Source: Nonomuraea gerenzanensis (GTDB taxonomy: Bacteria; Actinomycetota; Actinomycetes; Streptosporangiales; Streptosporangiaceae). From it: a stretch of DNA of 64,000 bases. The position numbers were made by a program, and so were the translations under genes. A model generated the notes under the pieces. The model did no database searches, was not told the origin of the DNA, and saw only the letters and a list, made by a program, of their open reading frames with translations. The stretch lies in NCBI RefSeq assembly GCF_020215645.1, contig NZ_CP084058.1:11090501-11154500 (forward strand). The letters are read 5' to 3'. Of the stretch, positions 963 to 3,080 are shown piece after piece. How positions within the stretch are numbered: position 1 is the stretch's first letter; each line of letters begins with the position of its first letter.

Positions 963-2069
963 TCAGCCGCCGCACGTCGGGCAGCCGGGCCGCCGGGGGA
1001 CGGGCCGGGAGCGGATCTCCAGCGGCCAGAAGTCCACCTCGCTCCACCGGTCGCCGAGGGCCGGCGGGAGCCCCGCCAGGATGCGGATCGCCTCCCAGGC
1101 CAGGATGTTGCCGACGAGGCCGGACAGCGCGCCCATCGCGCCCGCCTTGTCCCGCTTGCCGACAAGGGTCTCCATGCCGTCCCGCCCGTGGTCGGCGAAC
1201 GTCTCGGCGCGTACGCAGGACCAGCAGGCGGTCAGGCCGGGGATGATCGACGTGCCCAGCACCCCGATGTGGTAGGCGTAGCCGGTGCCCATGATGTGGG
1301 GGATGTCCGGCCAGCAGGCCTCGCTCACCCAGCCCGCCACGTCGTTGGGGGTGGGCTGGTCGGCCGCGTTGACGACGAGGTCGGCGCCCTTGACGACGCC
1401 GGCCAGGTCCTCGGCGCAGCCGATGCGCCGCTCCACGGCCTCCACCTCGATGAACGGGTTGAGCTCGCGCAGCCGGACGGCCGCCGCGTCCACCTTGGGG
1501 GTGCCCAGGTCGTCCATCCTGAACAGGACCTGCCGGGTGAGGTTGGAGACCTCCACCCGGTCGAAGTCGCAGACGCGGAGGCGGCCGACGCCCGCGGCGG
1601 CCAGGGCGAGCGCCACCCAGCCGCCCAGCCCGCCGATGCCGCAGATCACGGCGGTCGATCCGGCGAGGCGGCGCTGGAGCGCGGCGCCGCTCGTCTCGCG
1701 CGCCCAGCCCTCGTCGCAGAAGTCCTGGAACAGCCGGAGTTGACGATCGTAGAATTCGGCGCGCGCGACACCTAAAAGTCGAAATTCCGGCTCCGGTGCG
1801 GCGACCCGGCTCAACAGCCGCTCATGCTCCAGGATTTGCACGACTTCGGCCACCCTGGCACCCGCGCCGGCCGCGCCGCCACAAGTGAGCGCGCCGATCT
1901 CCTCGATCGTGCGGGTGCCGTCGAGAAGGACCACCACGGCTTTCACGAATTCGTCGCAGGTGAATCTCTTCACGGTCCGGTCGGCCAGGCACAGGAACAG
2001 CAGCGTGCCGCCGTCGGCCTGCACGATGACACTGTCACGCAGGCGCGGGCGCGATGCGGTGTCGGCCAC
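963..2069 (-). CDS. MccB-like ThiF/E1-family peptide adenylating enzyme with N-terminal RRE-like domain
   Basis: E1-like (ThiF/MoeB/MccB) enzyme of 368 residues from the proposed GTG at 2069. An AGGAGG lies 7 bases before that GTG; an ATG at 2075 is too close to it, and the frame stays open to a GTG at 2120. Residues 8-90 form a small winged-helix/PqqD-like region resembling the peptide clamp of MccB. The Rossmann core has GIGGLGG (144-150), the acidic turn CDFDRVEVSNLTRQ (from 167) with the arginine that contacts ATP in this family, and AADQP (235-239). The stretch from SEACW through HIMGTGYAYHIGV to ACWSC aligns with MccB. Zn-binding pairs are CWSC (282-285) and CPTC (363-366). No conserved E1 thiol cysteine is obvious, as in MccB. 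It follows an Asn-ending peptide gene, so the inferred role is C-terminal nucleotidylation of that peptide. Confidence 0.85.
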   Translation of the reverse strand: MADTASRPRLRDSVIVQADGGTLLFLCLADRTVKRFTCDEFVKAVVVLLDGTRTIEEIGALTCGGAAGAGARVAEVVQILEHERLLSRVAAPEPEFRLLGVARAEFYDRQLRLFQDFCDEGWARETSGAALQRRLAGSTAVICGIGGLGGWVALALAAAGVGRLRVCDFDRVEVSNLTRQVLFRMDDLGTPKVDAAAVRLRELNPFIEVEAVERRIGCAEDLAGVVKGADLVVNAADQPTPNDVAGWVSEACWPDIPHIMGTGYAYHIGVLGTSIIPGLTACWSCVRAETFADHGRDGMETLVGKRDKAGAMGALSGLVGNILAWEAIRILAGLPPALGDRWSEVDFWPLEIRSRPVPRRPGCPTCGG

Positions 2070-2143
2070 GGACATGCCTCCTACCCGGGTGTGGGTGAAG
2101 CCGGTGAATGCCTCACCCACAGGACGCTACCCGAGCCGAGGTT

Positions 2144-2230
2144 TCAGTTTCCGTGTGAGTTGGACGCGGTCACGGCACCGACGCGCAGCGGGACTTCTTC
2201 CACCTTCACCATCACGGGGGGTCGATCCAT
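2144..2230 (-). CDS. candidate microcin C-type precursor peptide (28 residues, C-terminal Asn)
   Basis: A short gene, too small for usual gene calling. ATG at 2230 follows the purine-rich site AGGAGAAAGGG by 5 bases. The product starts MDRPPVMVKVEEVP, continues with LRVGAVTASN and ends SHGN before TGA, giving 28 residues. Third codon positions are mostly G or C, as in real genes of this genome. It lies 74 bases before the MccB-like gene, on the same strand, and has its own promoter. In known microcin C-type systems the precursor ends in an invariant Asn that MccB converts and joins to a nucleotide; the final Asn here fits exactly. The mature product, any leader removal and the nucleotide base are unknown. 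A chance ORF is possible, but its position, RBS and final residue argue against it. Confidence 0.65.
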   Translation of the reverse strand: MDRPPVMVKVEEVPLRVGAVTASNSHGN

Positions 2231-2265
2231 CGCTACCCTTTCTCCTCTGATATTGTCCCGCGCAT

Positions 2266-2294
2266 ATCATGCCGAGTTCGAGGGCGCTTGACAA
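2266..2294 (-). promoter_or_regulatory. sigma-70-like promoter of the peptide/MccB-like unit
   Basis: On the minus strand TTGTCA (2294-2289) is followed after 17 bases by CATGAT (2271-2266), a good match to the housekeeping -35/-10 pattern with ideal spacing. The predicted start of transcription is near 2259, about 29 bases before the peptide ATG. This separates the peptide/enzyme unit from the upstream phosphotransferase gene. Confidence 0.5.
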
Positions 2295-2315: not shown

Positions 2316-3080
2316 TCAGCCGGAAAACTCGTCGAGTTCGTGCACGGCCTGATCGAGCTGCTCGGCCACCCCGCGCCGCAGCAGCCTGCCGTAGAGCCCC
2401 TCACCCCCGTGTCCCAGGCGGCGGATCAGCGCGGCCCGCTCGGCGAGCTGCCCCTGCACGTTCCTGACGAGCACCTCGGGCCTGCCCCGCCACCCGTAGG
2501 CGTCCAGGAACCGGCGCAGCCTGGCCGGCCGGGCCTCGAACGCGGTGAACCCCGTCGAGGCGTCCACGTGCCGGGCGTGCAGCGGCACCCAGCAGTGCGC
2601 CACCAGCGCCACCTCGGCGTCCACCGTGGTCGGCCCGGCGAAGTCCCAGTCGAAGAAGCCGGCCAGCCGCCCGTCCCGGTAGGCGGCGTTGGCGGGCCCC
2701 GCGTCGTTGTGGCCGATCACCAGCCCCGGCGACCACCGCCCGCCCGAGCGCCAGCGGGCGCCCGCGGACGGCACGAAGTCGGCCACGGCCTCGTGATAGG
2801 CGCGCAGCCACTGCGCCACCTGCACGAGCGTGTCCTCGGTGCGGGTCCACGACGGCCACACCGGCGCGTCGCCCATGGTGTCGCCCTCCAGGTACGTGAG
2901 CACCTCGTACCCGCCGGCCTCGACGCCCAGCACCCGGGGAGCCCCCTCGAACCCCTTGCGCTCCAGGTGACGCAGCAGCTCGTGGACCGAGGCCGTCCAC
3001 TCCCGCACCGGCCGCCGCACCGTGGCGCCCACGCGGACCGCGCCCGTGTCGTTCCCCCCGCCGAGCCGCTCCCCGGTCAT
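2316..3080 (-). CDS. aminoglycoside phosphotransferase (APH)-family kinase
   Basis: APH/choline-kinase-like small-molecule phosphotransferase, 254 residues from ATG 3080, which follows GGGGAGG by 8 bases; the frame stays open 36 codons further upstream, across the intergenic operator. The catalytic loop HNDAGPANA (His124, Asp126, Asn131) and the metal-binding DWD (144-146) are present, so the active site is intact. The hinge motif LTYLEGD lies at about 61-67. Family members phosphorylate antibiotics, choline, homoserine and similar molecules; the substrate cannot be told from sequence. It is divergent from the GH20 gene with a palindromic operator between them, so it may share that control. 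It ends 85 bases before the microcin-type unit on the same strand, and a role in self-protection there is only speculation. Confidence 0.85.
   Translation of the reverse strand: MTGERLGGGNDTGAVRVGATVRRPVREWTASVHELLRHLERKGFEGAPRVLGVEAGGYEVLTYLEGDTMGDAPVWPSWTRTEDTLVQVAQWLRAYHEAVADFVPSAGARWRSGGRWSPGLVIGHNDAGPANAAYRDGRLAGFFDWDFAGPTTVDAEVALVAHCWVPLHARHVDASTGFTAFEARPARLRRFLDAYGWRGRPEVLVRNVQGQLAERAALIRRLGHGGEGLYGRLLRRGVAEQLDQAVHELDEFSG

Follow-up and report, generated by a model that had tools for sequence, protein, structure and literature searches.

A Conserved 28-Codon Peptide Gene Beside a ThiF-Type Enzyme Gene in Nonomuraea: A Possible Minimal RiPP Locus

We describe a two-part locus of the soil actinomycete Nonomuraea, in which a 28-codon peptide gene under selection precedes the gene of an adenylating enzyme, and which we tentatively read, with confidence a little short of even, as a minimal RiPP locus. 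RRE-ThiF RiPPs are already known as a kind; what this locus adds is a well-defined precursor, together with a chemistry that we infer. The favored outcome, at a similarly tentative level, is that the activated Asn carboxylate closes a ring (-18 Da); nucleotidylation is a close rival.

Results

Layout of the Locus

The window, i.e., the whole stretch of DNA that was analyzed, comprises 64,000 nucleotides (G000:C1:11090501-11154500) of a 12.07 Mb genome. On its minus strand, an APH-type gene is followed by a promoter, a ribosome binding site, the peptide ORF, a stem-loop, a second ribosome binding site, and the enzyme gene. An earlier note on this DNA had read a promoter, a ribosome binding site, a 28-codon gene ending in SHGN and an E1 enzyme in this order, and all of them are present in the sequence, as are the E1 motifs that it had named (GIGGLGG, NLTRQ, and CWSC/CPTC). 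Its proposal of a Streptosporangiales-type host agrees with the enzyme, which matches part of the Nonomuraea gerenzanensis record NZ_LT559118.1 at 99.7% identity. This record of 11.85 Mb is stored among plasmids with 10 annotated features, and its size suggests a chromosome.

The sigma-70-like promoter TTGTCA-17-CATGAT (2266..2294, minus strand) lies 5' of the peptide gene and matches the consensus at 9 of 12 positions, compared with 0.1 such elements expected in shuffles. A similar pattern was found in 7 of the 14 aligned upstream regions, with a spacer of 17 in five and 18 in two. The GAGGAGAAAG region (2238..2247, minus strand) provides the ribosome binding site of the peptide gene (2144..2230, minus strand), which encodes MDRPPVMVKVEEVPLRVGAVTASNSHGN. 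The enzyme gene (963..2069, minus strand) encodes 368 aa from a GTG at 2069. Based on the spacing to its ribosome binding site AGGAGG (2077..2082, minus strand) and on the database protein P0001 (368 aa), this GTG is the likeliest start, rather than the 2120 of the longest ORF.

The Peptide Gene Is Conserved and Under Selection

The earlier note had proposed to mine related genomes for the same small gene before enzyme homologues. A degenerate DNA pattern, [A/T]-S-N-S-x-G-N-stop with serine as TCN and TGA as the only stop, was searched in 345 genomes of the host order. It matched at 15 places in 14 genomes (13 Nonomuraea and G321, of another genus), which were precisely the genomes with a close enzyme; the other 331 genomes gave no match, and the reversed pattern gave none in the same 345. 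Orthologous enzymes of at least 68% identity occurred in 13 of the 54 Nonomuraea genomes, the host genome counted. An intact 28-codon ORF ending in SNSxGN stood directly 5' of the enzyme gene in 11 of these 13 loci, and also in G321. In the remaining two, the enzyme-adjacent copy was frame-broken (G014) or absent (G024), and an intact copy was present elsewhere in the genome. These orphan copies (L180:7835 in G014 and L179:7816 in G024) share their synteny away from the enzyme; their neighbors are a Pfam-assigned histidine kinase gene and, judged by eye, a response-regulator-like gene, and a TTGTCA element lies 5' of the peptide gene.

For 13 peptides (the 11 adjacent and two orphan copies, with the broken copy, G321 and Virgisporangium set aside), pS was 0.463 and pN was 0.104, giving a dN/dS of about 0.155. 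The co-occurrence of signature and enzyme together with this ratio indicates that the 28-codon ORF is a real gene under selection. Profile searches with the peptide in Pfam and NCBIfam gave nothing.

The Asn-ending precursor read by the earlier note was recovered in all 14 intact close-family peptides, two of which, the orphan copies, came from a pattern demanding an Asn ending, so that the unbiased count is 12/12. Residue 26, on the other hand, is variable (H, A, N, T, or I). In a 12-row alignment that includes Virgisporangium, S23 and S25 are invariant and Asn28 is found in 11 rows. The leader presumably spans residues ~1-22 and the core SNSHGN, and the stretch TASNSxGN contains no Cys, Trp, Glu, or Asp. 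The expectation that an Asn-ending ORF would precede the enzyme homologues held as a fixed feature in Nonomuraea and G321, but it did not hold in Virgisporangium aurantiacum: the enzyme there belongs to the same clade (51% identity), and its leader-homologous peptide ends in ...ASASIS, as checked in the DNA. At L056:10120-11415, after the enzyme gene and its Ser-ending peptide, comes a gene for a macrolide-type glycosyltransferase (PF06722).

A Stem-Loop Separates the Two Genes

An 11-pair helix (2091..2120, minus strand) lies after the stop codon of the peptide and before the AGGAGG of the enzyme gene, and the host region folds at z -2.35. Across 12 aligned loci, 97.7% of the cells were paired, a value biased upward because the helix was derived from those very sequences; control helices slid along the alignment were 39-58% paired with 0-1 double-changed pairs. 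Four pairs of the helix were changed on both sides, which 4 of 500 shuffles reached, and RNAalifold gave the identical helix with three double-changed pairs. The count of further pair types in the helix was no different from shuffles (345/500). L019 showed no such fold (z -0.05), G321 has just 29 bases between the two genes, too few for the stem-loop, and Virgisporangium has a hairpin of different sequence at the same place (z -1.77). A role as an intrinsic terminator was rejected because no T-run follows the helix. In E. coli, mccA and mccB are described as being separated by a terminator hairpin (PMC6495379), and by analogy the stem-loop probably tunes the ratio of peptide to enzyme expression.

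The Enzyme Retains the Residues for Adenylation

The enzyme matched Pfam PF00899 (ThiF) with 152.5 bits against a cut-off of 28.1. Its best PDB relatives were MccB, then ThiF, MoeB, and PaaA, and the alignment to MccB by hhalign ran over near full length from residue 14 onward (E = 2.7e-42). The precursor-plus-adenylating-enzyme unit of the earlier note is supported as real. The AlphaFold2 model (mean pLDDT 88.5) places strands at residues 14-19, 22-27, and 32-37 and helices at 40-47, 55-63, and 69-82, which we take to be the winged-helix outline of an RRE; a wHTH-like N-terminus, as noticed earlier from the letters, is therefore also predicted by the model. According to the AlphaFold2 secondary structure and hhalign, this RRE-like unit covers residues ~12-85 (coding region 1815..2036, minus strand).

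The GxGGxG motif, D168, R179, K192, D237, and the four zinc Cys were retained in 17/17 sequences of the clade of this enzyme (hereafter the target clade). For EnfB, the corresponding Arg and Lys were reported to be essential for ATP binding, and an Asp-to-Ala change abolished the activity (PMC12250964). Since the ATP-site residues and the four zinc Cys of MccB are kept, the ATP-dependent adenylation of the C-terminal carboxylate of the peptide is likely, and it is the best-supported step of the proposed chemistry. Of the features expected of RRE-ThiF enzymes, the locus has the ThiF/E1 domain, whose catalytic residues (Arg, Lys, and Asp) and zinc Cys are in place, and a conserved short precursor gene beside it. 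The presumed crossover-loop stretch contains no conserved Cys, which makes a thioester relay unlikely; the acyl-AMP would be expected to be captured within the peptide.

The Enzyme Falls Outside the E. coli-Type MccB Clade

The locus had been described earlier as a microcin C-type unit. A single clade of MccB-type and target-clade enzymes was rejected (AU p = 0.0026) in a test with 15 E. coli-type rows (14 MccB homologues and one from H. pylori) and 11 target-clade rows, so that the rejection applies to MccB of the E. coli type only. In these trees, which were quick, carry SH-aLRT support only and have several long end branches, the target clade grouped with an enzyme of a Lactiplantibacillus plantarum plasmid (L145) and with L042 at 99% support. 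The peptides of these relatives end in ...EEKNGSC and ...SGGSCA, respectively. Among 14 homologues of E. coli MccB, mostly known by sequence alone, 58 positions were conserved in at least 13. Of these, 15 were MccB-specific and lost in the target, four were common to the target but not to MoeB/ThiF, and the remainder was general or ambiguous. The replaced MccB-conserved positions include N241 (Y), D242 (H/N), R181, and S212, while some of the 15 changes are mild, such as I126 to L and D305 to E. Together with the Ser-ending Virgisporangium peptide and the lack of a recurrent exporter or immunity neighbor (see below), the rejected clade and the lost positions leave membership of the locus in the microcin C family unsupported.

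Among the enzymes met outside Actinomycetota whose peptide could be read, L145 is the nearest, with 35% identity over 265 residues. In contrast to the target, its peptide ends in Cys, its core contains Glu, and a transporter gene lies next door. In this region (L145:5563-8021), two near-identical 19-residue peptides ending in EEKNGSC lie upstream of the ThiF-type gene and an MFS transporter gene. L042 (G024:C74) has its peptide and ThiF-type gene amid acyl-carrier-protein, ketosynthase-like, SDR, and P450-like genes (by eye).

A Kinase Gene Is the Only Recurrent Neighbor

The APH-type phosphotransferase gene (2316..3080, minus strand, with a possible extension to 3188) matched PF01636 with 30.1 bits against a cut-off of 23.2. 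Its HxDxxxxN and DWD motifs are presumably those of an APH-type kinase. It adjoins the unit upstream in 10 of the 13 Nonomuraea loci and in several genomic contexts. Kinase homologues were found in 53 of the 54 Nonomuraea genomes (E 1e-30), including copies of 58.6-72.1% identity in five enzyme-free genomes (G042, G006, G025, G007, and G040); in a sixth stretch, from G016, the gene finder called no kinase. The linkage is observed, whereas a dependence of the kinase on the enzyme is not, and we rejected the view that the pathway demonstrably includes the kinase, since homologues occur without the enzyme. Conceivably, it tailors the product by phosphorylation or gives the host self-protection.

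By clustering of predicted genes, called by a simple in-house rule, no neighbor except the kinase was present in more than 5 of the 13 Nonomuraea loci, and no exporter or immunity gene recurred among them. An MFS-like gene (by eye) lay within four genes of the unit in two of the 13 loci (L036 and L037). The earlier note had seen no obvious exporter or immunity gene beside the unit and had pointed to the sequence left of base 1 of the window; the ORFs in 14.5 kb of that sequence, inspected by eye, contained none either. The three S66 (MccF-type) genes of the host genome are megabases from the locus. No YcaO gene was recognized by eye among the neighbors. The SDR gene at 18-803 was discarded as a part of the unit, being confined to five loci of one synteny.

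Related Enzymes and Short Peptides in the Order

The same broad RRE-ThiF-like family, target clade included, was found in 117 of the 345 genomes of the order (E 1e-50), while a phylum-wide search at E 1e-70 returned one of 396 genomes, the host's own. A short peptide, often ...KIRKLEKIETT-like and then a short core, was seen in 20 of 40 loci (39 from the E 1e-50 list and that of G321) by a motif-and-RBS filter that misses real peptides, such as that of G321. The host genome has three further ThiF-type genes, L002, L005, and L006 (G000:C1:5033509, 9853842, and 5537310), each preceded by a short peptide of differing sequence (...SVKATQNPAT, ...KLEKVETTSWRDGGG, and ...KLEKIETTINRGGASG, respectively).

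Among 55 enzyme-positive loci, 20 shared one neighbor cluster, in which an HExxH motif was recognized by eye. In L104-L142 and L148 (Streptosporangiaceae and a Streptomyces plasmid), this partner is membrane-like and has an RRE-like N-terminus, again by eye. A Nocardia neighbor at the same position belongs to Pfam M50, which suggests that the HExxH partner is a leader protease.

In a further clade of 19 loci, spread over 18 genomes, the precursors (L183-L199 and L201) are 20 residues long, of which 14 form the leader. The cores were GNSNSC in 12 loci, CGNSNS in four, and SNSNGC and SSGANC in one each, and one locus yielded none. Cys is first or last in the core, and an M14 carboxypeptidase-like gene lies near the CGNSNS loci. 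The target core SNSxGN, the SNSTGN of L107/L093, CGNSNS, and GNSNSC can be written as rotations of one ring, with X being H, A, N, T, I, or C. It is improbable, in our estimate, that several lineages yield one closed hexapeptide ring, Ser-Asn-Ser-X-Gly-Asn, and the rotation was rejected as strong evidence, since 3.5% of the shuffles of CGNSNS and 3.4% of those of GNSNSC also match; the shared ring is a long shot. SNSNGC and SSGANC, from the same clade as CGNSNS and GNSNSC, are not rotations of the target core. The enzymes of the CGNSNS/GNSNSC clade were separated weakly from the target (AU p = 0.038, four rows), and those of L107 (SNSTGN) strongly (AU p = 2.4e-05).

Discussion

In the reaction that we propose, the RRE-like unit of the enzyme would bind the leader, and the enzyme would adenylate the C-terminal carboxylate of the peptide with ATP. 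Because TASNSxGN lacks Cys, Trp, Glu, and Asp, the possible nucleophiles are Ser/Thr hydroxyls, backbone amides, the Asn side chain, and a freed N-terminus. A small ring (-18 Da) would result if the acyl-AMP met its nucleophile within the peptide, in the form of a Ser/Thr hydroxyl of the core, an amide of the backbone, or the N-terminus after its release; this closure would resemble those described for EnfB, IndF, GrcB, and PaaA. The RRE-ThiF reactions described in PMC12250964 and PMC12150305 are nucleotidylation by MccB and the formation of a bicyclic core by PaaA, a thiolactone by GrcB, an indolylamide by IndF, and a macrocyclic imide by EnfB. The four reactions other than that of MccB are intramolecular cyclizations, and this analogy, like the replacement of N241, D242, R181, and S212 in the aligned sequences, favors ring closure. 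EnfB (enterofaecin), IndF, and GrcB combine an RRE joined to an adenylating domain, carboxylate activation, and intramolecular capture, much as we predict for the target; compared by description, they differ in their cores, which have Trp, Cys, or Glu instead of SNSxGN. Pantocin A PaaA is likewise an RRE and adenylating enzyme, with a 30-residue precursor, but it is the weaker PDB match and is described as acting on two core Glu (PMC12250964), of which the presumed core of the target has none. A total of 27,400 candidate fusions is catalogued in a mining study of global scope (PMC12150305), and no paper on these loci, or on Nonomuraea or actinomycete ThiF RiPPs, was found in the open-licence PMC literature.

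Several observations speak against ring closure and for a microcin C-type product, in which the C-terminal Asn would pass through a succinimide to an aspartamide N-P-nucleotide, a Trojan-horse inhibitor of an aminoacyl-tRNA synthetase. Asn is last in every intact close peptide while position 26 varies, which fits the chemistry of MccB, and some of the 15 lost positions are mild changes. Leader removal and export would also be left unexplained by ring closure, as the loci have neither a recurring protease nor a recurring exporter. Moreover, microcin C systems, both of the E. coli and the long-precursor types, resemble the target in the short Asn-ending precursor, the RRE-like and E1/ThiF enzyme, the gene order, the intergenic hairpin described for mcc (PMC6495379), and the ATP-site and zinc residues, and MccB provides the best PDB relatives. 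A precursor of more than seven residues is no novelty, since Asn-ending precursors of greater length have been published (PMC6495379, PMC7157772): MccB trees are reported to contain a second clade with precursors of 17-56 residues (PMC6495379), and Asn-ending Hyalangium precursors of 36 and 46 residues were reported to be adenylated in vitro (PMC7157772). On the other hand, the target enzyme is rejected from the E. coli-type clade and lacks the MccB-specific residues, a peptide of its own clade ends in Ser, the loci have no recurrent exporter or immunity gene, and the S66 genes lie far off. The chemistry of the target clade need not involve Asn at all, since the peptides of its relatives end in Cys (Lactiplantibacillus), Ala (L042), and Ser (Virgisporangium). 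We consider the nucleotide product somewhat doubtful, at a little over one chance in three, and it keeps this standing because the tree covers MccB enzymes of the E. coli type only.

Two other explanations were weighed. The activated C-terminus might be passed to an outside acceptor, such as an amine, a sulfide, a small molecule, or a protein, giving an intracellular conjugate for which an exporter is unneeded. This would agree with the scarcity of recurrent neighbors in the loci and with the reported ability of EnfB to amidate with free amines (PMC12250964); against it, the sole recurrent neighbor, the kinase, belongs to a family found also without the enzyme. We regard this explanation as unlikely. 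In the other, translation of the short ORF would control the enzyme via the stem-loop, and its product would be a regulatory leader peptide and no precursor, which is very improbable. The conserved stem-loop between the ORF and the enzyme gene would suit such control, but selection acts on the amino-acid sequence, intact copies with no enzyme gene beside them exist in two genomes, and many related enzymes are preceded by leader-core-like peptides.

If the activation of the C-terminus is true, this locus and its siblings would represent a large and little-explored set of tiny actinomycete RiPP pathways, in the format of one enzyme, one 20-40-residue precursor, and a short core. The two-part locus is small enough for reconstitution, and it could show directly which fate, nucleotidylation or cyclization, meets a core that ends in Asn when its enzyme is not of the E. 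coli-type MccB clade, an answer that bears on the diversification of E1-like enzymes. Related loci of Streptosporangiaceae hold many other short cores, and if the shared-ring reading were true, E1-type C-terminal activation would serve this family more generally for making very small cyclic peptides.
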